Shown in pieces: positions 36,229 to 46,584 of a stretch of 46,584 nucleotides of DNA (its first letter is position 1; every line of letters starts with the position of its first letter). The notes below the pieces were generated by a model, which made no database searches, was not told the origin of the DNA, and saw only the letters and a program-made list of their open reading frames with translations. Origin of the DNA: Planctomycetota bacterium (lineage in GTDB: Bacteria > Planctomycetota > Planctomycetia > Pirellulales > Thermoguttaceae); assembly GCA_029550925.1 (NCBI GenBank), contig JAKPGL010000016.1:65734-112317 (forward strand). The letters are read 5' to 3'. Made by a program: the position numbers and the translations under genes.

Positions 36229-38301
36229 TTACGGAATTTCTTTTTCTTTCTCCTTCTTTGTCCGATGGAACACCGGCAGCAGGCAGATGAAGGTAGAGCC
36301 TTTTCCCGGGGTGCTTTGGGCGGTGATGCTGCCGCCGTGTCGCTGGACGATCTTTCGGCAAATCGCCAGTCCCACGCCGGTCCCTTCATACACATCCCGG
36401 GGATGCAATCGCTGGAACATATTGAAAATGCGATCCAGATATTTTTCTTCAAATCCAATGCCGTTGTCTTCGACAACGATTCGGCAAAACTCTTCTGTTT
36501 CGGCCGCACTGGCGGATCGCTGAGTTCGGTCCCGCAAATATCGGCCGGATACCCGGACCAGGGGCGGCTCGTCCGGCCGATGGAACTTCAGCGCATTGCC
36601 CAGAAGGTTCTGGAATAGCTGACGCATTTGCAATGGATCGGCGTAGATGGTCGGCAGATGGCCCACTTCCACCCGGCCTTGCACCTTTTCGATCTGAGCC
36701 TCCAGGTCCCGGACCACCTCCTGAACCACTTCCTCCAGGTTGACCCGCACAAACTCCTGGCCCTGGGTGGTTACCCGAGAAAGCGTCAGCAGACCATCGA
36801 TCAGCCGTTGCATCCGCTGGGCGGCGTCTTGCATCCGAGCCAAACATTCCCGCCCTACCTCGTCCAATTGTTGGTCGCACTTCATCTGAAGCCGATCGCC
36901 GAACGTGCGAATTTTTCGCAGCGGCTCCTGCAAGTCGTGCGAGGCAATGTAGGCAAACTGTTCCAGTTCTTTATTGGATCGCTCCAATTCGGCGGCGTAG
37001 CGGGCTTGTTCTTCCTCAGCCTGTTTGCGCTGGCTGATGTCCCGAACGAAAAACGTAAGCACCGGTTCACCGTGCTCCTGGCTCAGGGTCATGGTCATTT
37101 CCGCCGGGAAGAGTTCCCCGTTGGCTCGGCGGGCGGTTACTTCCATCCGTCGGCCCAATTGCGATCCTTCGCCTGACTGCAAGTACCGCTCGATCCGATT
37201 CTGCTGACTGGGGCTATCCGCCGGCGGAAACAATAGCTCCGAGGGCGTCCGACCGATCACTTCCTGCCGGGGATAACCGAACACCTGTTCGGCCGCCCGG
37301 TTGAACTCGGTAATCTGGCCCGCCGCATTGATCGTAATGATCGGGTCCAGCGAGGTCTCCAAAATGGCGTGTTTCCTGGCCTCCACCTCGGCCAACGCCT
37401 CTTCCAGTCGCTCCTGGTCCGAAACCGGTCGATGGACAATCGCCAAACAACTAGTTCGCTCCTGCCCCGGCGATTTCACCAGCCGAAGCAACGTCTCATA
37501 CTCGATCACCTCGTCGTCGCCCAAATGGCGAACATGACTCCGGCCTTTCCATCGGCCCGATTGATTCACCGCCGGCACCGCCACATCCCGCAACTCGGCC
37601 CAGGAGGCTTCCGTATAAAACTGCGAAAGCCGAACTGCACCGGCCGGTTGCTTCTCCTCCAGCCCGAAGGCCCGCCGAGCCGACCGATTGAAATAAAAGG
37701 GCCGACCGTGTAGATCGGCCAAGCAGATGACTGCTTCCTCCTCTTCCACCAGGGAGGCCAGAGCAGCCCAGGTGCGATCCTCGCCGCCAACCTCGCCGGC
37801 CGCAGCTCGGTTGCGATCCCCGATTGTTTCCCCAGGCGCTGGGCGAGAGCGGTCCGCCGCCGATTCCACAACCCCAGCAGACTTTTGCTCCGCTGCGACG
37901 ATTCCCACCGTTTGCCGAGCGTGCTTTACGCCTTCCGCTGCAATCGTTTGACGGACTTCCGCCATCAGGTCGGCTAATTGACTGAGCAACAGGGCCAAGG
38001 TCCGTTTCCGATCGCTTTCCCGGAGGATCACGTTTCGGCAGGCCGCCTCGACCAATCCCAGAGCGGAGAACAATTCGCCGATCGAACCTCCGGCAGAAAG
38101 AGCGGCCTGGGTCCACACGGAGGCCCAATCTTTGACAGGCCTCGGGTCTCCTTGAGCGAAAGCCTTCATGGCCTCCAATACTCGGCCCAGATCAGCCTCT
38201 CCAATAGACCACTGCCGATTGCCCGAAGCCGACAACCGCCGCCGATACACCGCCTGAATTGCTTCCCCCCGGCTTTGTAAAAACTTCCGCAACTGTTGCA
38301 T
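36229..38301 (-). CDS. PAS-domain sensor histidine kinase
   Basis: Protein of 690 aa from ATG 38301 (GGGGG just upstream; a GTG four codons earlier is also in frame). No membrane segment is visible, so it is cytoplasmic. Residues about 1-130 form a helical N-terminal domain; a PAS-like domain (AVICLADLHGRPFYFNRSAR) lies near 170-290 and a clear PAS (ILETSLDPIITINAAGQITEFNRAA would be its start) near 305-420. The HisKA site is FAYIASHDLQEPLRK with H455, followed by an HATPase domain with EDNGIGF, FQRLHPRDVYEGTGVGLAIC and a C-terminal Lys/Glu tail. The phosphoacceptor segment is of the type found in phytochrome-like kinases. First gene of a three-gene signalling operon. Confidence 0.9.
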   Translation of the reverse strand: MQQLRKFLQSRGEAIQAVYRRRLSASGNRQWSIGEADLGRVLEAMKAFAQGDPRPVKDWASVWTQAALSAGGSIGELFSALGLVEAACRNVILRESDRKRTLALLLSQLADLMAEVRQTIAAEGVKHARQTVGIVAAEQKSAGVVESAADRSRPAPGETIGDRNRAAAGEVGGEDRTWAALASLVEEEEAVICLADLHGRPFYFNRSARRAFGLEEKQPAGAVRLSQFYTEASWAELRDVAVPAVNQSGRWKGRSHVRHLGDDEVIEYETLLRLVKSPGQERTSCLAIVHRPVSDQERLEEALAEVEARKHAILETSLDPIITINAAGQITEFNRAAEQVFGYPRQEVIGRTPSELLFPPADSPSQQNRIERYLQSGEGSQLGRRMEVTARRANGELFPAEMTMTLSQEHGEPVLTFFVRDISQRKQAEEEQARYAAELERSNKELEQFAYIASHDLQEPLRKIRTFGDRLQMKCDQQLDEVGRECLARMQDAAQRMQRLIDGLLTLSRVTTQGQEFVRVNLEEVVQEVVRDLEAQIEKVQGRVEVGHLPTIYADPLQMRQLFQNLLGNALKFHRPDEPPLVRVSGRYLRDRTQRSASAAETEEFCRIVVEDNGIGFEEKYLDRIFNMFQRLHPRDVYEGTGVGLAICRKIVQRHGGSITAQSTPGKGSTFICLLPVFHRTKKEKEKEIP

Positions 38302-38619
38302 CGTTACCCCCACAGGCCATATACTCCCACTGCCCCTCCGGTGGGCCAGAAGAGCACAACACCACCTCCTTCCCCTCTCATTATAATCTTCCTTTTTCCT
38401 TTAGCCTATGGTAGGCGCCGTTTTTCAACCCCCGACCCGTGGGCCACTTCTCCAACTCTCCCACCAGGAAAATCTTTGGTCTGGCAGGCAGCCCCCCTAC
38501 CCGACCGCTTGCACCCGCCCGTTCGTTGCACCAAAATGACGTTTAGACGTTCCGATAGGCGGAACCTTTGACCGCTGTGTTGTTTCCCTTTTTTCATCTT
38601 TCCATCGAGGAGATCAACG
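38302..38619. other. Intergenic region between divergent genes
   Basis: About 318 bases between the kinase start and the DUF1080 start. A small inverted repeat GTTCCG-ATAGG-CGGAAC lies at 38549-38565. An AT-rich stretch (38375-38405) could hold a promoter for the kinase operon, but no pair of boxes is convincing. No gene is seen. Confidence 0.4.
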
Positions 38620-39300
38620 ATGCGCATTCTGGGATTGGTCCTTGGACTGATTGGCTGCTGGGTTGAGGCTGAGGTTCGTTTGGCCCAGGCAGAAGACAAC
38701 ACCCCTCCGCCAGGATTTACCGCACTGTTCAACGGCAAAGACTTAACCGGCTGGAAGGGCCTGGTCGGCAATCCGAAAACCCGCGCAGCAATGTCCCCCC
38801 AGCAATTGGCCGAGGCCCAGAAAAAAGCCGACCAGATCATGCGCGCCCATTGGAAGGTGGAAAACGGCGCGTTGGTTTTTGACGGCAAGGGACAAAACCT
38901 CTGCACCGAAAAAGATTACGGCGACTTCGAACTCTACGTGGATTGGAAGATCGCCCCCAAAGGCGATAGCGGCATCTACCTGCGGGGAACGCCCCAGGTG
39001 CAGATTTGGGATAATCCGGTCGGCTCCGGCGGCCTGTACAACAACCAAAAGAACCCCAGCAAACCCTTGAAACATGCGGATCGGCCCGTCGGCCAGTGGA
39101 ACACCTTCTATATCAAAATGGTCGGCGACCGGGTTACCGTCAAACTCAACGGCGAACTGGTGGTCGATGATGTGGTCATGGAAAACTACTGGGAACGGGA
39201 TAAGCCCATTTACCCAACCGGCCCCATCGAACTGCAAAACCACGGCAATACCTTGTGGTTCAAGAACATCTACATCCGGGAACTGCCTAGAAAACAGTAA
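38620..39300 (+). CDS. Secreted DUF1080 / 3-keto-disaccharide hydrolase-like protein
   Basis: Protein of 226 aa. The first 25 residues are a signal peptide (MRILGLVLGLIGCWVEAEV). The mature part is one concanavalin-like domain of the DUF1080 family: GFTALFNGKDLTGWKG at the start, WKVENGALVFDGKG, GDFELYVDWKIAPKGDSGIY, and a C-terminal PIELQNHGNTLWFKNIYIREL. The family is strongly expanded in planctomycetes; characterised members hydrolyse 3-keto-glycosides or bind glycans, so a role in sugar breakdown outside the cytoplasm is likely but not shown. The ribosome-site-to-start string AGGAGATCAACGATG is identical to that of the nucleoside hydrolase at 22580. Confidence 0.88.
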   Translation: MRILGLVLGLIGCWVEAEVRLAQAEDNTPPPGFTALFNGKDLTGWKGLVGNPKTRAAMSPQQLAEAQKKADQIMRAHWKVENGALVFDGKGQNLCTEKDYGDFELYVDWKIAPKGDSGIYLRGTPQVQIWDNPVGSGGLYNNQKNPSKPLKHADRPVGQWNTFYIKMVGDRVTVKLNGELVVDDVVMENYWERDKPIYPTGPIELQNHGNTLWFKNIYIRELPRKQ

Positions 39301-39578
39301 CCGCTCCCAAAACCAGGCCGAAACAAGGAACCCCTGGATAGGGTCAGACGCCCGATGAACCAAGTGGCCCAGTCTGTTCGACGGGTTTAACAGCGCGTTT
39401 TCCCGGCGGAGTGGAGTGGGGGGAACGACACCCCCTATTCGGGTGGACCGATCCGTTCCCCGGGCGTTCAGGATGCCGTGGAAGCGTCGGCTGGAGGCCC
39501 CCTATTCATGGTAGAGGTGAAGATTTTCCGGCACTAGGGCTGAAGAGTCGGGGCGGAAAGGTCGAAAATAAAAAGGAC

Positions 39579-39615
39579 TTGACTTTTTTGGCTATTTGGC
39601 TAAATTTGCAAATAG
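39579..39615 (+). promoter_or_regulatory. arsR promoter with ArsR-type operator O1
   Basis: -35 TTGACT (39579-39584), 16 bases, -10 TAAATT (39601-39606). The operator GGCTATTTGGCTAAATTTGC (39590-39609) continues AAATAG; CTATTTG (39592-39598) and CAAATAG (39609-39615) are a perfect inverted repeat. It covers spacer and -10, as expected for repression, and matches O2 before the permease gene. Confidence 0.7.
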
Positions 39616-39656
39616 AAAAGAACCGAGTCCCTCTCCCCGTCCGAACGAGACCCATC

Positions 39657-40004
39657 ATGAAAAAGACCGAAAGCTTCCTGACTGCCCCTCCGCAGCGGGC
39701 CAAGTATGAAGCCTTGGCCGGGATCCTGAAAGCCCTGGCCCATCCCACCCGGCTTTTTATGGTGGATCAGTTGGCCCGGGGCGGTCCCCGATGTGTGTGT
39801 GAGCTGACCGAAATGGTCGGCGCCGATATTTCGACCGTCTCTCGCCACCTAGCCCTCCTGAAAAAAGAGGGGCTGGTGGCAGCCACCAAGAAAGGAACCA
39901 TGATCTATTACCAACTTCGACTTCCCTGTGTGGTCAACTTTTTGGAGTGTTTGCATTCGGTCCTGAGCAGCAACATTCAGGACCGGTTGAAACTGCTTTC
40001 CTAG
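39657..40004 (+). CDS. arsR: ArsR/SmtB-family metalloid-responsive repressor
   Basis: Protein of 115 aa from ATG 39657; the frame is open for another 82 codons upstream, but those codons overlap the promoter and operator. Winged helix-turn-helix with recognition helix DISTVSRHLALLKKEGLV (58-75) and wing AATKKGTMIYYQL. A CxC pair C46/C48 (RCVCEL) sits at the start of the DNA-binding helices, the usual As(III)/Sb(III) site of ArsR, and C91 and C98 in the last helix may add ligands. Metalloid binding would release it from O1 (self-control) and O2 (permease operon). The co-located ArsF/ArsG-like genes support arsenic over zinc as the signal. Confidence 0.88.
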   Translation: MKKTESFLTAPPQRAKYEALAGILKALAHPTRLFMVDQLARGGPRCVCELTEMVGADISTVSRHLALLKKEGLVAATKKGTMIYYQLRLPCVVNFLECLHSVLSSNIQDRLKLLS

Positions 40005-40130
40005 CAAGGAGGCTTGTCGGGACTGCCGAGATGGCAGACCCTGCTGCGTGCAGGCGGTTCGGGTACCAATGGCCCGGACAACCTGCCTTAGTGGGGGCAG
40101 GACCAGAGATGGTTCCATCCCACGTAACTT

Positions 40131-40262
40131 AGGCTGTCTAGCCTGAGATCATTGAGCTGTCCAGCCTGAGGGAACCTGCCGGGTGCTGAACCGCGGCAGG
40201 TATCCATCCATGCACTTTCAGCCCTTGTCGGCTCAGGAGGCTTCGGCATGGGGCTAGTGCCC
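40131..40262. repeat. Hairpin AGGCT-GTCT-AGCCT plus CCGAAGCCTCCTGAGCC repeat, copy 2
   Basis: AGGCTGTCTAGCCT at 40131-40144 is a perfect hairpin whose context (ACTTAGGCTGTCTAGCCTGAG) equals the inverse of the B unit in the array at 42753-43016, except that the stem pairs are swapped. At 40175-40262, read on the minus strand, come GCCGAAGCCTCCTGAGCC and GTTCAGCACCCGGC, matching 32047-32115. The repeat lies between arsR and the permease promoter; no gene is seen in 40005-40313. Confidence 0.6.
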
Positions 40263-40313
40263 GGAGTATCGGGAGGAGTTTTCGCCGAAAAGATAGGGTT
40301 TTTTTGCGATTGA

Positions 40314-40344
40314 ACTTGCATATTTTGCCAAATAACCATATACT
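40314..40344 (+). promoter_or_regulatory. Permease operon promoter with ArsR-type operator O2
   Basis: -35 TTGCAT (40316-40321), 17 bases, -10 TATACT (40339-40344). The operator at 40314-40337 reads on the minus strand GGTTATTTGGCAAAATATGC plus AAGT, matching O1 in TATTTGGC-AAAT-TGCAA. It overlaps the -35 and spacer. Confidence 0.7.
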
Positions 40345-40370
40345 AACCCTCTATTAAAGGAGTTGCCCCA

Positions 40371-41711
40371 ATGCGGAAAGAATTGACAATTTTCGCCGTG
40401 TTAGTCGGCGTCTTCCTATTCGCCTATCTGGTGAATTTTTCATCGCCTATTGTCCAAAATGCCATCCAAGAAGCCTTCTACATGCTTCAGTGGTATGCCC
40501 GGAACCATACGTTGGCCTGTGTGGTACCCGCTATGTTCATTGCCGGCGCCATTGCCACCTTCCTGTCCAAAGAGGGGGTGCTTCGGCATCTTGGTCCCAG
40601 GGCCAACAAGGTGGAGGCCTATGCGGTGGCCTCAGTGGCCGGCACGGTGTTGGCCGTCTGCTCGTGCAGTGTGCTACCGATGTTTGCCGGTATTTACCGG
40701 ATCGGAGCCGGCCTGGGACCAGCCAGTGCGTTTTTGTATTCAGGTCCGGCGATCAACGTGATGGCCATCTTCCTAACGGCCCGGGTGCTGGGGTTCGATC
40801 TGGGAGCGGCTCGGGTGGTCGGGGCGGTAAGTTTTGCCGTGGTCATCGGTCTGCTGATGGCCGCCTTGTTCCGTAAAGAAGAAGCCGAGCGGGAAAAGGT
40901 TTTCCTGGCCATGCCGGAGCCGCCGCCGTCGCCCCGCAAGGGTTGGCAAACCGCCCTGTTTCTGGCCGTCATGATCGCCTTTTTGGTCTTTAGCGACTGG
41001 TCCAGCCCAAGCCGAACCACTTTGAAAAAGACCGATGGAACCACCCTGGAAGTAGCCGTCCTGCTGGAAACGACCGATATGTACCGGTTCCAATTGGAAG
41101 AGCCGTTCCAAGATCCCAGCAAAGGGATCGACTGGCCGAAGGGCAAAAAGCTCAACGTGTCCAAATCGGAGATTCTGGAGCTTTCGTCGGCCACGCCGCC
41201 TGGTTATGAGTGGGCGCAATGGATTTATGATCACCGATGGTATTTTGCCGCCGTTTGTTTGGTGGCCACCGTGGCGATGGCCTTCGGTTGGTGCGCCCGA
41301 GAAGAATTGACTGAATGGATGAATCAGACCTGGTGGTTTGCCAAGACGATCATTCCGCTGCTTTTCGGCGGCGTGTTGGTAACCGGGTTTGTCGGCGCAT
41401 TGATTCCGGAAGAAGCGGTAGGTCGGCTGGTGGGCGGCAATAGCCTGTGGGCCAATTTTATCGCTTCCTTAGTGGGGGCGATGTGGTATTTTGCCACCCT
41501 GACGGAAATCCCCATTCTGGAAGCCCTGATTGGGCTTGGCATGGGCCGGGGACCGGCGCTGGCATTGCTGTTGGCCGGGCCTGCCTTGTCGTTGCCAAGC
41601 ATTGCCGTCATCTACAGTGTATGGGGATTTCGGAAGACCGCCGTGTTCGTCGGTCTGACGGTCGTCATGAGCACGCTGGTTGGTATGGTGTTTGGTGTCT
41701 TTTTTGGATAA
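40371..41711 (+). CDS. SO_0444/ArsP-type permease
   Basis: Protein of 446 aa with about eight to ten membrane segments. The family signature is CSCSVLPMFAGIYRIGAGLG (C97, C99) followed by ASAFLYSGPAINVMAIFL, typical of the ArsP_1/DUF318 permeases that export metalloids, organoarsenicals or divalent metals. A hydrophilic domain (about 180-280), with a Lys/Asp-rich cytoplasmic or periplasmic segment, splits the two membrane halves. The second half ends with GMGRGPALALLLAGPALSLPS, repeating the first half's pattern. AAAGGAG lies nine bases upstream of the start. The operator O2 upstream ties it to ArsR. The mini-thioredoxin gene follows by 12 bases, a conserved pairing that suggests the permease needs reduced cysteines or an oxyanion carrier. 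Confidence 0.88.
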   Translation: MRKELTIFAVLVGVFLFAYLVNFSSPIVQNAIQEAFYMLQWYARNHTLACVVPAMFIAGAIATFLSKEGVLRHLGPRANKVEAYAVASVAGTVLAVCSCSVLPMFAGIYRIGAGLGPASAFLYSGPAINVMAIFLTARVLGFDLGAARVVGAVSFAVVIGLLMAALFRKEEAEREKVFLAMPEPPPSPRKGWQTALFLAVMIAFLVFSDWSSPSRTTLKKTDGTTLEVAVLLETTDMYRFQLEEPFQDPSKGIDWPKGKKLNVSKSEILELSSATPPGYEWAQWIYDHRWYFAAVCLVATVAMAFGWCAREELTEWMNQTWWFAKTIIPLLFGGVLVTGFVGALIPEEAVGRLVGGNSLWANFIASLVGAMWYFATLTEIPILEALIGLGMGRGPALALLLAGPALSLPSIAVIYSVWGFRKTAVFVGLTVVMSTLVGMVFGVFFG

Positions 41712-41723
41712 GGAGGAGAAAAA

Positions 41724-41957
41724 ATGAAGCTGATTCAGATTTTAGGACCTGGTTGTGTTCGTTGTGAGAAGCTCAAACAAAACGCCGAAGAGGCGGTCAA
41801 GCGGGCAGGCGTCGAAGCCCTTGTGGAAAAAATTACCGATATCAATGTGATCACCGGCTACGGCGTGATGATGACGCCCGCGATTGCCATCGACGGCGAA
41901 GTGAAAGCGGCCGGCAAAGTCCTTTCGCCGGAAGAAATCCAGCAAATGTTGGCCTAA
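41724..41957 (+). CDS. Mini-thioredoxin (TM0996/MTH895 family)
   Basis: Protein of 77 aa, cytoplasmic. The active site GPGCVRCEK (C11, C14) lies at the start of the first helix; a cis-proline loop MTPAIAIDGEV and a final helix (LSPEEIQQML) complete a compact thioredoxin fold. These small redoxins commonly travel with DUF318/ArsP permeases. AAGGAGG lies upstream. It probably reduces a cysteine on the permease or delivers reducing power for arsenate/organoarsenical handling; this is inferred from context. Confidence 0.88.
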   Translation: MKLIQILGPGCVRCEKLKQNAEEAVKRAGVEALVEKITDINVITGYGVMMTPAIAIDGEVKAAGKVLSPEEIQQMLA

Positions 41958-42034
41958 AGGGGGTTTTCAGGGTAAAATCCAACTTCCGGGTCTTTGTGGC
42001 GTCGTACTCCCCTTTTATCATAAGGAGTTTTGCC

Positions 42035-42745
42035 ATGGCGCGATGGGTTTCTCGACGACGGTTTTTGCAGACGACGAGTTTGACGGCGGCGGGCGCTGGG
42101 CTGGCGGGATCGGCGGCAGTAGCGGCCAGCTCGGCCGAAACCGCCCCGGCCGACCAGAAGATCAAAATCATCGGCATTGCCTGTAGTCCGCGCAAAGGGA
42201 AGACCACGGCCCAGGCGGTGCGTGTGGCCCTGGAAGCAGCCAAGGCGGTAGCCCCGGACCGGATCGAGGTGGAACTTATTGAGCTTGCCGATCTGGAGAT
42301 CCCCGGCTACGTGGCCGCCGGCATCCCCCTGAAAGAAGGCCAACGGGACGATTTTCCTCCGCTGGCCGAGAAATTGGCCGACAAGCAGACCGCCGGCATT
42401 ATCGTCGGTTCGCCGGTGTATTTTGGGTGCATGAGTTATCTGTGCAAGGCCTTTTTTGACCGATGCATTGTGCTCCGCAAGCAGTTTGCCTTGTCCGGCA
42501 AGGTGGGCGGCGCAGTGGCGGTGGGAGCGGGCCGAAACGGCGGCCAGGAACTCACCCTGCAAGCCATCCGCACCGTGCTCAGCTCCCATGAAATGGTCCT
42601 CGTCGGCGACGGCAAACCCACGGCCCACTGGGGGGCCACGGTTTGGAACAACGGCAAAGACGACATTACCCAGGACGAAATGGGCATGGCCACGTTGAAA
42701 AACCTCGGTCGCCGGGTGGCCGAGGTCGCACTGGCCTGCCGGTAA
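42035..42745 (+). CDS. Tat-exported NADPH-dependent FMN reductase/flavodoxin-like protein
   Basis: Protein of 236 aa from ATG 42035 (AAGGAG upstream; the frame opens 13 codons earlier without a ribosome site). The N-terminus SRRRFLQTTSLTAAGAGLAG is a twin-arginine signal. The mature part is a flavodoxin-like FMN fold: IIGIACSPRKGKTTAQ (phosphate loop), GIIVGSPVYFGCMSYLCKAFFDR (isoalloxazine loop) and GAVAVGAGRNGGQELTLQAI. Iron-sulfur flavoproteins and NADPH:FMN reductases share this layout. Export folded with FMN suggests electron delivery in the periplasm, and in this cluster the likely acceptors are the ArsF-like proteins or an aromatic nitro or arsenical compound. A tandem-repeat array separates it from the next gene. 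Confidence 0.85.
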   Translation: MARWVSRRRFLQTTSLTAAGAGLAGSAAVAASSAETAPADQKIKIIGIACSPRKGKTTAQAVRVALEAAKAVAPDRIEVELIELADLEIPGYVAAGIPLKEGQRDDFPPLAEKLADKQTAGIIVGSPVYFGCMSYLCKAFFDRCIVLRKQFALSGKVGGAVAVGAGRNGGQELTLQAIRTVLSSHEMVLVGDGKPTAHWGATVWNNGKDDITQDEMGMATLKNLGRRVAEVALACR

Positions 42746-42752
42746 GATGTTT

Positions 42753-43016
42753 GTAACGTCGGCTGTGAGCCGGCGCCCGTAACGTCGGCTGTTAAGTCGG
42801 CGGGTGGCTCAGCCTAGACAGGCTAAACTACGTAACGTCGGCTGTTAGCCGGCGGATAGCTCAGCCTAGACAGGCTAAGCTACGTAGCGTCGGCTGTTAG
42901 CCGGCGACCGTAACGTCGGCTGTTAAGCCGGCGGGTGGCTCAGCCTAGACAGGCTAAGCTACGTAGCGTCGGCTGTTAAGCCGGCGCCCGTAACGTCGGC
43001 TGTTAAGCCGGCGGGT
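42753..43016. repeat. Compound tandem-repeat array (A and B units)
   Basis: Seven copies of unit A (GTAACGTCGGCTGTTAAGCC plus GGCG, with small changes) begin near 42753, 42779, 42832, 42885, 42910, 42964 and 42990. Three copies of unit B (about 29 bases, with GCTCAGCCTAGACAGGCTAA) sit between A copies near 42803, 42855 and 42934. A contains the complementary pair GTCGGCT/AGCCGGC; B contains AGCCT-AGAC-AGGCT. Both would fold as hairpins in RNA. The array fills the gap between the flavin reductase and DGC genes. Confidence 0.85.
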
Positions 43017-43047
43017 AGAAGCGTTTTGAAGAAAGGAGCAGATCGCT

Positions 43048-43446
43048 ATGGCTCAATCAGGAGTGCAATGTGCCTGCGCCAGTGCGCCGCGGTTGGTGTT
43101 TTCATGTTCGGGCGCTTCGGATGTGGGGCATTTGACGGATTTGGCGGCCAGGGAGTTGGCCAAGCAGGGCGTCGGCCAGATGTGTTGTCTGGCAGGCATT
43201 GGAGGCCGGGTGAGCGGATTTATGGCTTCGGTGGAGTCGGCCGCCGCCGTTTTGGTCCTGGACGGTTGCCCATTGGATTGCGGCCGGCGCACCATGGAAC
43301 AGGCCGGGTTTAAGGATTTTGTCCATCTGCGAGTAACCGACCTGGGCTTCCAGCGGGGCCAGTCGCCGCCCACGCCCGAACGTATCCAGACGGTGGTCCA
43401 ACAGGCGACCGCACGGTTTCCGCAGCCTACTCCTTCGAGTAGTTAA
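43048..43446 (+). CDS. DGC-domain putative zinc-binding protein
   Basis: Protein of 132 aa. Cysteines are placed as in the DGC (DUF1847-like) family: VFSCSGASDVG (C20), QMCCLAG (C46, C47) and the naming motif D72-G-C-P-L-D-C78, followed by GRRTMEQAGF. An extra CAC pair lies at residues 8-10. No signal is seen, so it should be cytoplasmic. The cysteines could hold zinc or an arsenic(III) ion. AAGGAG lies upstream of the start. DGC genes often accompany metalloid permeases and thioredoxins, which suits this position; the biochemical role is not known to me. Confidence 0.85.
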   Translation: MAQSGVQCACASAPRLVFSCSGASDVGHLTDLAARELAKQGVGQMCCLAGIGGRVSGFMASVESAAAVLVLDGCPLDCGRRTMEQAGFKDFVHLRVTDLGFQRGQSPPTPERIQTVVQQATARFPQPTPSSS

Positions 43447-43505
43447 CTTCCCTATGAGCGGATGGGGAACAAGTAACATTTTAACACCACTGGAGGACTC
43501 ATGGG

Positions 43506-44399
43506 ATGGAAAGACTGCTTCGTCGAGATTTTTTGGCAGGTCTGGGGCTATTGGGCAGTAGCGGCCTATTGGTAGGCTGTGGACTAGGCAACTTAGAGCC
43601 CCCTTCCTCCCTAGGGGAAGAATCGCCCAATCGGTCTGCCAGCCCCAAACCATCGCCGGCCCAAGAAAAGCCACCTCAAGAAAAACCCGCTGCGCAGTTG
43701 GCCGTTTGGAAATGGCACCCATTAGACCCGCAAGAGGTGGGTAAAAAAGCCTATGAACTCTATCCCGACGGCAGTTGTACTTATTCCGTGGTCGGTGGAG
43801 TGATGTTGGTTTTGGCCGAGCGGTTCGGCGAGCCTTATCGTTCCTTCCCTCTGCACATGGCCTGATTCGGGCGGGAGGGGATAGCTGGTTTGGGTACGGT
43901 ATGCGGCGTGGTCAGCGGCGGGGCGATGCTGATCTCTCTTTTTGTGGGAGAAAAAGATCCTACGGTACGGGATTCCTTGATTCGTGAACTGGCTTTTTGG
44001 TATGAAAACGCTGAACTGCCTATCTTCCGACCGGAAAAACCCGAATGGGCCGAAACCGTGGAAACCTGTCGGGCCGACTCTATGCTGTGTCATATTTCGG
44101 CGTTCCGCTGGACGCAGGCAAGCGGTCGCGACGCCTACACGCAGGAAAAAAAGGAACGCTGCCGACGGCTCTCCTGCGACGGAGCCATGAAAACCGTCGA
44201 AATCCTTAACCGACATTTTGCCGGGCAACCCTGCCCTGGGCAGATCCCTCCAGAAACTCAAACCTGTCTGGAATGCCACGGGAAAAAACAATTGCGGGAT
44301 ATTCGCGGCGCCATGCGGTGCAGCACCTGCCACAGCCAACTTTCGGAAAAACACCCCAAATTCGAGCCGGCGCCTATCCCGAAGCCCACAAACCAATAA
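43506..44399 (+). pseudogene. Split-Soret/C-GCAxxG-C-C cytochrome interrupted by an in-frame TGA
   Basis: One reading frame from ATG 43506 (GGAGG upstream) to 44399 is broken only by TGA at 43863-43865 (codon 120). Before it: a Tat-like signal with lipobox (RRDFLAGLGLLG, VGC), then the family start DGSCTYSVVGG (C91). After it: FGREGIAGLGTVCGVVSGGA (C133), helices with further cysteines, and two CxxCH haem sites C254/C257/H258 and C272/C275/H276. This is the split-Soret cytochrome type of the C-GCAxxG-C-C family. The TGA may be a nonsense mutation (CGA Arg is one change away), selenocysteine (known in this family) or read-through. Without read-through only a 119-residue stub is made. If intact it would be a periplasmic electron carrier. 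Confidence 0.7.
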
Positions 44400-44458
44400 C
44401 AGGTGCATTTCCTTTTGAAGATAGAAGATAAACGGATAAACTCCCGAGAAGAGAAAAG

Positions 44459-44661
44459 GTAACGTTTTAGCCGAATGAAGAACATTCGCCACTGCCCTAG
44501 AGTGGGAGAGGCCGGATTGCCCCCTAGGCCAAGCCGGCTGAAGGAGCAAAAAGCTTGCTTGTTTCCCTATTTTCCCCCTCACCGGCCTGCTGCGCAGGCC
44601 TCCCTCTCCCGCCAAGGGAGAGGGGAAAGCTAAGACCTTCTGTATTCGGCTGAAATGTTAC
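44459..44661. repeat. Interspersed repeat with inverted ends (CATTCGGCT family), copy 4
   Basis: Left end GGTAACGTTTTAGCCGAATG (44459-44478) and right end TGTATTCGGCTGAAATGTTA (44641-44660) plus C are inverted copies, bounding about 200 bases. Inside are the GGGAGAGG and CCCTCACCGG palindromes also found at 19038-19194. Size and ends resemble a non-autonomous MITE; no target duplication is seen. Confidence 0.6.
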
Positions 44662-44736
44662 GAATTTCACTCCATTGGGCGGAAGTGTTACTCGAACCGG
44701 AGGGATCCGGCGGTTGAATAGGAAGGAGTTTTGGTT

Positions 44737-45561
44737 ATGGAGCTGAAGCAGGCGGTAGCGGTCAGTTTGATTGCCGTGGTGGCGGCCAGTTTGGTGCTGT
44801 TGATGGCGCGGGCGTTGGACTTGCAGACGGCCGGTCGGTTGGAGCCGCAACTGGCCCAAATTGCCGAAGAACTCCAAACGGTGCGCAAACTCTTGGCCCA
44901 GGGCCGGACTGCTCCAAACGGCCAGACGCCCACATTGGCCGAGCAGCCTGCTTCCTCGGCCAGCCCGGCCAGGTTGTCCCCCGGGGGAGGCCCTTCGAGC
45001 AGCGAACCAGGCCGGAGCAGCCAGGAAACCTTGGTAGTCTGGTATTTCCACGGCACAATGCGCTGCCCCACCTGCCAGACCATCGAAGCCCTGGCCCATG
45101 AGGTGGTGCAGACGGATTTTGCCCAGGAGTTGGCATCTGGCCGGATAGTGTGGAAGACGGCTAACTATGAAAAGCCGATGTACTCCGCTTTAGCCCAGAA
45201 AATGCAGGTTCGGATGCCGGTGGTTGTCCTGGCCCGGATGCAGAGCGACCAACTGCTGGAAAGCAAGACGCTGGAAGAAGTCTGGGGCCTGGTGCAAGAC
45301 AAGTCGGCCTTCCGAAATTTTCTCCTGAAAGAAATCCGGCAGATGCTAGGACACTCTAGCCGGGAACCGGTGGCGTCGGCTTCCCCGCCGAGCAGCGTGC
45401 TGCAGCCGGCTGTGTCGGCGGCTTCAGGAGAACCCACGTTGGCCACTCGACCGAACCTGCTTCGGCTCAATCCGCCCGATCCGCCGGGCGAAAAATCTAT
45501 CGGCTCTACAGAACCGGAAGCCCCGGAAATCAAGCAAAAGGATTTGCCCTTACCGGAGTAA
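44737..45561 (+). CDS. ArsF-like CPTC thioredoxin-fold protein, membrane anchored
   Basis: Protein of 274 aa from ATG 44737 (AAGGAG upstream). A single N-terminal membrane segment (VAVSLIAVVAASLVLLMARA) is followed by a coiled coil and a Ser/Pro-rich linker. The thioredoxin-like domain (about 97-210) contains VWYFHGTMRCPTCQTIEA with C110/C113, and KMQVRMPVVVLARMQ as the cis-Pro region. This matches the family named after ArsF of arsEFG, a nitroaromatic-arsenical reductase system. The C-terminal 65 residues are Pro/Ser-rich. The second ArsF-like gene and the ArsG-like permease follow. It would sit on the outer face of the cytoplasmic membrane. Confidence 0.8.
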   Translation: MELKQAVAVSLIAVVAASLVLLMARALDLQTAGRLEPQLAQIAEELQTVRKLLAQGRTAPNGQTPTLAEQPASSASPARLSPGGGPSSSEPGRSSQETLVVWYFHGTMRCPTCQTIEALAHEVVQTDFAQELASGRIVWKTANYEKPMYSALAQKMQVRMPVVVLARMQSDQLLESKTLEEVWGLVQDKSAFRNFLLKEIRQMLGHSSREPVASASPPSSVLQPAVSAASGEPTLATRPNLLRLNPPDPPGEKSIGSTEPEAPEIKQKDLPLPE

Positions 45562-45657
45562 AAAGACGCATCTTTTTAAAAATTACCTCGAAGGGACATG
45601 ACGTTCGTGTTCCGGGGAATTTTTATATCCCAACGATGTTCCTCCAAGGAGAAAGTT

Positions 45658-46101
45658 ATGATAGGGAAAAAAGCCTTCTGTATGATGATGTTTCTTGGGT
45701 GTTTAGCAGGTGGGGAGTGGGCGTTTAGCGCTGAGCCGCCGCCGGATCGGGTGGTGGTGATGTATTTCCATCGCACCCAACGGTGTCCGACCTGTATGCG
45801 CATGGAATCCTACGCCCGACAGGCCCTCGAAGAGGCGTTCTCCGAACAACTTCAAACCGGCCAGATTGCCTTTTATTCGATCGACTTTCAAGATGAGCGA
45901 AACGCCCGCCTAACACGGGCCTATCAAATTACCGGCCCTACGTTGATCATGGTCAAAGTGGTTAACAAGAAAGGTATGGAATCCAAAAACTTGCAAGAAA
46001 TTTGGGCCAAAGTCCGAGACCAAAAAGAGTTTTTCCGATACGTGCAGACCGAGGCGGCCGGCTATCTGCCGAAGTCGGCCCCAAGAAGTGCCTCCCGATA
46101 A
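45658..46101 (+). CDS. ArsF-like CPTC thioredoxin-fold protein, secreted
   Basis: Protein of 147 aa from ATG 45658 (AAGGAG upstream; the frame opens 20 codons earlier without a site). A signal peptide covers about residues 1-25 (MIGKKAFCMMMFLGCLAGG), then VVVMYFHRTQRCPTCMRMES with C43/C46 and GPTLIMVKVVNKKGMESKNL. It is a shorter paralogue of the preceding protein without anchor, coiled coil or tail. The pair may pass electrons between membrane and periplasm, or handle different thiol states. It precedes the ArsG-like permease by 58 bases in the same direction. Confidence 0.82.
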   Translation: MIGKKAFCMMMFLGCLAGGEWAFSAEPPPDRVVVMYFHRTQRCPTCMRMESYARQALEEAFSEQLQTGQIAFYSIDFQDERNARLTRAYQITGPTLIMVKVVNKKGMESKNLQEIWAKVRDQKEFFRYVQTEAAGYLPKSAPRSASR

Positions 46102-46159
46102 GTAGGAACCCACCGGACTTCCTAGCAGAATAAAATCCCATCCAAAGGAGTTTCCCTTT

Positions 46160-46584
46160 ATGGCAGCGTATGCGGTAGCGTTGCTGGCGGCCGTGTATTT
46201 GGGGCTTTTGACCTCGATCAGTCCCTGCCCGTTGGCCACCAACATAGCGGCCATTTCCTATGTGGGGCGAAAGGTGGGCACGCCTCGGGCGGTGCTGTGG
46301 GCCGGGCTGCTTTATACGCTCGGCCGGGCTGTGCTTTATTTAGTACTGGCCCTGCTCATTACCGGCATGGCCCTCTCGATGACCGGCCTTTCGCTGGCCT
46401 TGCAAAAATCGGTCCATCTGGTGCTTGGGCCGATCTTTATTCTGTTGGGTATGTTGCTGCTGGGGCTGATCACTAGTTCTACCGGCGGCGGCAGTCTGTT
46501 TTCGGAAACCCTGCAACAGCGGATCGACCAGATGGGCCTGTGGGGGGCGTTTGTCATGGGCGTGGTGTTTGCCTTATCGTTTTG
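46160..46584 (+). CDS. ArsG/CcdA-like membrane permease (3' end outside the window)
   Basis: The first 141 codons of a membrane protein that runs off the right edge. Start ATG 46160 with AAAGGAG upstream. Four hydrophobic segments are visible; the first carries the SPCPLATN motif (TSISPCPLATNIAAISYVG), the redox-cysteine or substrate site of CcdA/DsbD-like and ArsG-type permeases. The order ArsF-like, ArsG-like matches arsEFG operons, in which ArsG is described as an exporter of aromatic aminoarsenicals. A plain CcdA-type electron carrier feeding the two CPTC proteins is the alternative. The missing C-terminus prevents a choice. Confidence 0.8.
   Translation, partial: MAAYAVALLAAVYLGLLTSISPCPLATNIAAISYVGRKVGTPRAVLWAGLLYTLGRAVLYLVLALLITGMALSMTGLSLALQKSVHLVLGPIFILLGMLLLGLITSSTGGGSLFSETLQQRIDQMGLWGAFVMGVVFALSF

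Follow-up and report, generated by a model that had tools for sequence, protein, structure and literature searches.

The window analysed here, i.e., the whole stretch of 46,584 nucleotides from a planctomycete genome (G000:C34:65734-112317), ends where its contig ends and carries at that end a run of nine plus-strand genes, from position 39657 to the last letter, in the order arsR-arsP-arsE-flavoprotein-DGC-cytochrome-arsF-arsF-arsG. On balance, this cluster is probably an ArsR-repressed operon for thiol-reactive arsenicals that combines the permease ArsP with a transmembrane dithiol relay from ArsE via ArsG to ArsF and with optional redox modules. A preliminary description made from the letters of the window had named all of these genes, and family models recovered each of them on the plus strand; its view of the cluster as an arsenical/thiol-redox system of the ArsR type, in which flavin, haem and CPTC proteins bear export signals, is upheld as well, and ACR3 or ArsM genes adjoin the cluster in some relatives. 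The core comprises arsR-arsP-arsE-arsF-arsF-arsG, and its elements are the following:

39593..39614, probable ArsR operator TATTTGGCTAAATTTGCAAATA, overlying a promoter-like TTGACT-16-TAAATT (39579-39606)
39657..40004, plus strand, arsR, ArsR/SmtB-family repressor with a CVC motif (NF033788, 85.5 bits, cut-off 55)
40327..40334, operator half-site GCCAAATA, upstream of arsP
40371..41711, plus strand, arsP, ArsP_1 permease of 446 amino acids (PF03773, 243 bits, cut-off 32)
41724..41957, plus strand, arsE-type mini-thioredoxin with a CVRC motif (TIGR00412, MTH895/ArsE family, 98.4 bits, cut-off 62)
44737..45561, plus strand, arsF copy 1, CPTC motif, N-terminal hydrophobic anchor as judged by eye (NF040494, 95.8 bits, cut-off 60)
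45658..46101, plus strand, arsF copy 2, CPTC motif, signal-peptide-like start as judged by eye (NF040494, 103.1 bits, cut-off 60)
46160..46584, plus strand, arsG, CcdA/DsbD-type membrane protein cut by the contig end (NF040495, 163.7 bits; PF13386, 37.2 bits)

A relay with one permease, rather than a nitroreductase with two exporters, is favoured because ArsG belongs to a family with a CcdA-type cysteine pair and ArsF is modelled as a thioredoxin fold. The ArsG match to PF13386 (DsbD_2) exceeds its cut-off of 24.9 bits, and that to NF040495 stays below its cut-off of 200 bits, covering the 138 of 225 model positions that are visible in the window. Of the 110 distinct family members compared, 109 keep the first cysteine, and the second is present in each of the 109 with letters there; the second was counted by alignment column, and a regular expression for its motif matched 0 of 110. 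A search with the ArsG profile (alignment A1) returned no sequence match to a solved structure at E up to 1. Given this near-invariant pair, which is that of the CcdA/DsbD electron carriers, ArsG is re-read here as a probable electron carrier and not as the second of two exporters, as had been proposed in the preliminary description, nor as an efflux transporter, as it is listed in the available passages of PMC9144182.

For ArsF, both CxxC cysteines are invariant in alignment A3. The AlphaFold2 model of copy 2 (mean predicted local distance difference test score 88.3; element order E-H-H-E-H-E-E-H-H) yielded 46 PDB matches at E <=0.001 in Foldseek, mainly to domains of the thioredoxin and protein disulfide isomerase type, with a best E of 5e-5 and modest query-normalised TM-scores of 0.33-0.55. 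According to this model, ArsF is a thioredoxin-fold protein with a CxxC motif and no further domain. The N-terminal anchor of copy 1 also occurs in several relatives (alignment A2). The two CPTC proteins, which had been taken as additional to ArsF, are the ArsF proteins themselves, and the mini-thioredoxin, rather than a gene to be sought past position 46584, represents ArsE. Its CxxC motif is present in 109 of 109 rows, and no export signal was seen in it; here and for ArsR, ArsP, the flavoprotein and the DGC protein, the row counts contain duplicates and paralogues. ArsP is the sole PF03773 match in the genome and contains a hydrophilic stretch in mid-protein together with the motifs HTLACVVPAMFIAG and LAV-CSC. 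The C-S-C residues, which conform to the C(S/T)C motif, are kept in all 92 rows that have letters there. As judged by eye, ArsP resembles ArsP cluster 1 as characterised in the available part of PMC4435449, i.e., by C(S/T)C, an HxxxClvPAxFIAG-like N-terminal motif and LAV before CSC. Assignment to the SaoE or SO_0444 transporter families was rejected, since both scores were below cut-off (104 vs 325 and 105 vs 300 bits, respectively).

In the repressor ArsR, the first CVC cysteine is kept in 78 of 78 and the second in 68 of 78 aligned rows. The operator TATTTGGCTAAATTTGCAAATA recurs as an identical copy in L053 and near-identically in L057 and L083, and the pattern ATTTG..CAAAT is found in 12 of 31 stretches upstream of arsR (shuffled mean 0.1), which extend into the reading frame, the starts being unsure. 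The half-site GCCAAATA, on either strand, is found in 13 of 33 stretches upstream of arsP (shuffled mean 0.1). Both counts include the window as one row, derive from related genomes and were compared with mononucleotide shuffles. The promoter scan is weak by itself, with five found vs 2.8 expected.

The grouping of the nine genes exceeds chance, as judged by I) their short same-strand gaps of 12-366 bp (366 bp between arsR and arsP, then 12, 77, 302, 59, 337, 96, and 58 bp); II) the same order in L052, a locus of the same-genus genome G294; and III) the presence of core partners around ArsG elsewhere. A GGAG stretch lies shortly 5' of the start in each of the last eight genes. Rfam elements over the gathering score were absent from 38000-46584, and a search of viral contigs with ArsF copy 2, which reaches close relatives only, gave no confirmed match.

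In the proposed mechanism, ArsR would repress the operon and probably respond to As(III), and ArsP would export a trivalent, probably organic, arsenical. ArsE, as a cytosolic CVRC thioredoxin, would hand electrons to the CcdA-type membrane carrier ArsG, with flow presumably in this direction, and ArsG would pass them to the two exported ArsF proteins. The latter, one predicted to be membrane-anchored and the other secreted, may act outside the cytoplasm by reducing arsenicals or thiols that arsenicals have damaged. The twin-arginine translocation (Tat) flavoprotein and the split-Soret cytochrome could act as added periplasmic redox partners. The DGC protein could bind metalloids in the cytosol, and a radical-SAM/SPASM protein encoded past the contig end could be the maturase of one optional module. 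A flavin-to-haem-to-CPTC chain, as had been suggested before, is possible and would depend on optional genes, one of which is interrupted here.

ArsF-family proteins occur in 61 of the 296 genomes, own included, and regions from 39 of these 61, selected and mostly strong matches, make up a set of 40 relative loci. There, ArsG is found in 37, ArsE in 36, ArsP in 32, and two ArsF in 31 loci, and the accessories in fewer: the DGC protein in 16, the Tat flavoprotein in six (plus one weak), and the split-Soret cytochrome in six, some absences being contig ends. The full order with flavoprotein, DGC and cytochrome genes recurs only in L052, one of the 40. Thus, of the expectation that the neighbours are conserved together, the part on the core order holds in relatives, whereas the accessories are largely not retained. 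The accessory set is labile, as it varies among relatives, the same-genus genome G295 included. Among 41 loci, clustering placed an ACR3-type gene within ~6 kb in six and an ArsC-type gene in five; ACR3 exceeded its curated cut-off in L067 and L076, and the one ArsC tested scored 157 vs a cut-off of 174 bits. ArsM exceeded its curated cut-off in L091 (genome G329; L091:4086-5985), between arsG and a split-Soret gene.

A wider set consists of the best 80 of at least 576 ArsG relatives from a scan of genome contigs, and comprises Planctomycetota, Zixiibacteriota, Krumholzibacteriia, Desulfobacterales, Lentisphaerae, Omnitrophota, and others. It is not independent of the 40 loci, with which it shares places, e.g., L061/L158, L064/L159, and L060/L161. 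Within 5 kb of ArsG, these best 80 loci contain ArsF (79), ArsE (72), ArsR (67), ArsP (66), ACR3 (25), DGC (12), ArsM (8), flavoprotein (2), HgcA (1), and split-Soret cytochrome (1). Distant members may escape the models, which were built from planctomycetes, and the counts for ACR3 and ArsM are upper bounds, their models being single sequences used at E up to 1e-4 with several weak matches. An arsP gene beside arsE, arsF and arsG had been regarded as unusual; in the sampled loci it is the rule. The core is widespread and already known, and the newer part is formed by the accessories and by the run into hgcAB in two relatives.

Part of the core resembles the ars operons of Castillo and Saier (2010; PMC2963123), in which genes for CcdA-, thioredoxin- and redox-active disulfide protein 2 (RADP2)-like proteins stand together, as here; the available passages give this set for eight ars operon instances in seven organisms, and also note an ArsP type of ~400 amino acids with a hydrophilic insert. 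Transmembrane electron flow is raised by those authors but doubted, and the export signals of ArsF would remove that objection for the present set. The operons in those passages include arsC in seven of the eight instances and were proposed to form a putative arsenate reductase system, whereas the partners in the window are ArsP, two ArsF, the flavoprotein, the DGC protein, the cytochrome and the radical-SAM protein. With ArsEFG (Chen, Zhang and Rosen 2019, known here via citation), the window shares matches to the ArsE and ArsF family models; it differs in that accessory genes lie between arsE and arsF and that ArsF is doubled, and its activity is putative. In the literature searched, as listings and passages, no description of the full gene set was found.

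The window ends within arsG, and only the first cysteine of the CcdA-type pair is visible there. Contig C5 of the same assembly opens with a 3' part of ArsG that is 93% identical to ArsG of G294, followed by a gene for a radical-SAM/SPASM protein of 431 amino acids (L241:333-1628) whose ATG overlaps the arsG stop as ATGA. Its best family is TIGR04317, a tungsten-oxidoreductase maturase, and since the score is below cut-off (286 vs 380 bits) the name given here goes no further than maturase-like radical-SAM protein. In G294 (L052:7241-8563), a relative lies 3' of arsG, again with ATGA, and G350 has another as two fragments (L075, which L166 duplicates); across the 121 loci searched, matches were confined to L052, L075/L166 and the window genome. 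Two AFOR_C-family proteins are encoded elsewhere in this genome. On its contig C22, a separate ArsR-family gene precedes an ACR3 pump (L242:5180-6680), so the locus described here need not serve inorganic arsenite.

Several observations weigh against a relay-based arsenical operon. The last two letters of C34, TG, fall in the codon for the second ArsG cysteine, where C5 has a Tyr codon; the second cysteine of the window ArsG is unproved, contig ends being unreliable. In G295, L053 keeps only arsR-arsP-arsE-flavoprotein and one arsF; tblastn did not find the DGC protein, the cytochrome or ArsG in its 16 kb, and a tblastn query with ArsF copy 2 and a family search gave one ArsF there and no second. 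A core without ArsG means that the relay is not indispensable. The wider 80 loci were chosen by their likeness to planctomycete ArsG. With the one ArsM model tried, the best score in the window genome was 29 bits vs a cut-off of 263, so no home-made source of methylarsenite was found. Lastly, the title of Chen et al. 2019, as cited in PMC9144182, assigns ArsEFG to roxarsone and nitarsone resistance, and the available passages of PMC9144182 count ArsG among the efflux transporters.

These last two statements, together with the NCBI family names and the ArsE and ArsF scores over the curated cut-offs, favour a strict system for nitroaromatic arsenicals in which ArsE and ArsF would be nitroreductase subunits, ArsG would export the aminoaromatic product, and the Tat flavoprotein would be an extra reductase. 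Such a system is unlikely here, given that the ArsF model consists of a thioredoxin fold alone and that the CcdA-type cysteine pair is kept in ArsG relatives. Roxarsone is a synthetic compound, and the set is spread over many phyla, for the most part in genomes assembled from metagenomes as judged by record title, which suggests no tie to it.

Another reading concerns mercury methylation. In L063 and L078, hgcA lies directly 3' of arsG on the same strand (HgcA 460.5 and 436.4 bits, respectively, cut-off 275) and is followed by a gene for an HgcB-like two-cluster ferredoxin, recognised by motif match; arsE-arsF-arsG-hgcA-hgcB-like spans L063:6443-8760 and L078:5304-7746, with arsP also in L078. 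The order in G370 (L153) is arsR-cytochrome-hgcA, and an ArsR-family gene lies beside hgcA in G317 and G379 (L154 and L155). In the hgcA loci L151, of 3.5 kb, and L152, no ars neighbour from the analysed set was found. These arrangements could mean that the set forms an operon for organometal(loid)s in general, serving mercury or other thiol-seeking metals as well, hence its joining with hgcAB. In its fullest form, arsR-arsP-arsE-arsF-arsG would be a redox-export machine for organometal(loid)s in general, and its relay would feed an exchangeable set of periplasmic redox enzymes, namely the flavoprotein and the split-Soret cytochrome, matured with radical-SAM help; hgcAB would be an operon partner in some planctomycetes and mercury methylation one arm of a thiol-metal detoxification circuit. 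This is an improbable extension, and the narrower claim that the operon is not arsenic-specific is likewise doubtful. HgcA exceeds its cut-off in only seven of the 296 genomes, two of the seven in an ars operon, and has no match in the window genome. Moreover, PMC7438021 and work to which PMC10349881 refers have already explained the linkage as arsenic control of hgcAB, and the available passages of these two papers report arsR, acr3, arsC and arsM near hgcAB. According to the passages available, an ars gene was present on only four of 35 contigs in PMC10349881, none of them arsR, and arsR was away from hgcAB in PMC12953829. L063 and L078 share the presence of ars genes with the neighbourhoods in PMC7438021 and PMC10349881, and differ in that arsE-arsF-arsG runs directly into hgcA, an arrangement without mention in the passages of these two papers; in the hgcAB literature passages searched overall, no mention of arsE, arsF, arsG or arsP beside hgcAB was found. 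The two loci thus offer a concrete operon context for the question of what hgcAB is for.

The features inserted between arsE and the first arsF are the following:

42035..42745, plus strand, Tat-signal flavoprotein of the flavin mononucleotide reductase family (PF03358, 94.8 bits; TIGR01409, 17.3 bits, cut-off 16.7)
42753..43016, array of short, partly palindromic repeats (repeat families D1-D3) between the flavoprotein and DGC genes
43048..43446, plus strand, DGC-domain protein (PF08859, 100.6 bits, cut-off 27)
43506..44399, plus strand, split-Soret-like dihaem cytochrome with two CxxCH motifs and an in-frame TGA at 43863-43865

The cytochrome starts with RRDFLA and a lipobox-like LVGCG, as judged by eye. 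It resembles split-Soret cytochrome c (PDB 1h21) in its two CxxCH motifs and a conserved non-haem cysteine, and its same-genus homologue matches 1h21 at E 8e-35. It differs from the split-Soret equivalog NF047622 in its score below cut-off (162.9 vs 400 bits, as one match with one TGA), in its twin-arginine, lipobox-like N-terminus and in the TGA. Six stop-free homologues have R (four), Q (one) or K (one) at the TGA position. A frameshift was ruled out, both halves being in one frame, and so was selenocysteine: ARAGORN found no tRNA-Sec at the loci checked (run on eight of the 12 match loci, it read the sole above-cut-off RF01852 match as a tRNA-Ser), and no SelB exceeded its cut-off in the window genome, which is 97.5% complete. 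Relaxed selection after the TGA was not seen in a comparison with the same-genus copy, with a ratio of nonsynonymous to synonymous substitution of ~0.11 downstream vs 0.08 upstream at synonymous distances near saturation. The similar constraint on either side implies that the stop either arose recently or reflects an assembly error. The cytochrome step may be lost in this genome or the stop may be an artefact of assembly.

Split-Soret matches occur in 55 of the 296 genomes. The strong set of 42 places excludes 29 of 71 rows below 100 bits, among them G383:C186 and G387:C152 on ArsF contigs. Of these 42 places, 14 are in ArsF-bearing genomes, eight of them within 4 kb of ArsF; a chance estimate of 2e-18 presupposes a target of 9 kb in a genome of 4 Mb and treats the genomes as independent, and the count alone is relied on. 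In G397, the split-Soret gene is on the ArsF contig at 6.2 kb from ArsF, and in G307 and G362 it adjoins arsP-flavoprotein or arsR-arsE on short contigs. A 30-row cytochrome tree, drawn open, contains one group in which ten of 12 rows are ars-linked (support 85/86); the linked row L188 falls outside, and the ars-linked label needs three changes. An ars-associated split-Soret branch is therefore likely, though not proved, on this sequence comparison. Further split-Soret-like groups, next to which no core ars gene was found, are represented by L102, L105-L115, L117 and L118.

ResA is the partner of CcdA. Owing to the CcdA-like nature of ArsG, the CPTC thioredoxin fold and export signal of ArsF, the position of the cytochrome gene amid the ArsF and ArsG genes and its proximity to ArsF elsewhere, ArsG and ArsF might be supposed to act like CcdA and ResA in keeping the CxxCH cysteines of the split-Soret apocytochrome reduced so that haem can be attached, but this is very unlikely, as the cytochrome is present in only six of 40 relative loci and one of the best 80 wider loci, ArsE, ArsF and ArsG persist without it, and for 28 of the 42 strong split-Soret places the genome has no ArsF match.

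As for the remaining accessory proteins of the putative arsenical operon, RR and F of the flavoprotein Tat signal are kept in nine of nine rows. The DGC residues and further Cys are nearly invariant across 34 rows, and no export signal was seen in the DGC protein. Variant clusters with two DGC genes, in which no ArsP was found, occur in L056, L059, L063, L064 and L091, some on short contigs; they also contain an OsmC-like protein in L056 and L063 and a GcvH-like protein in L059.

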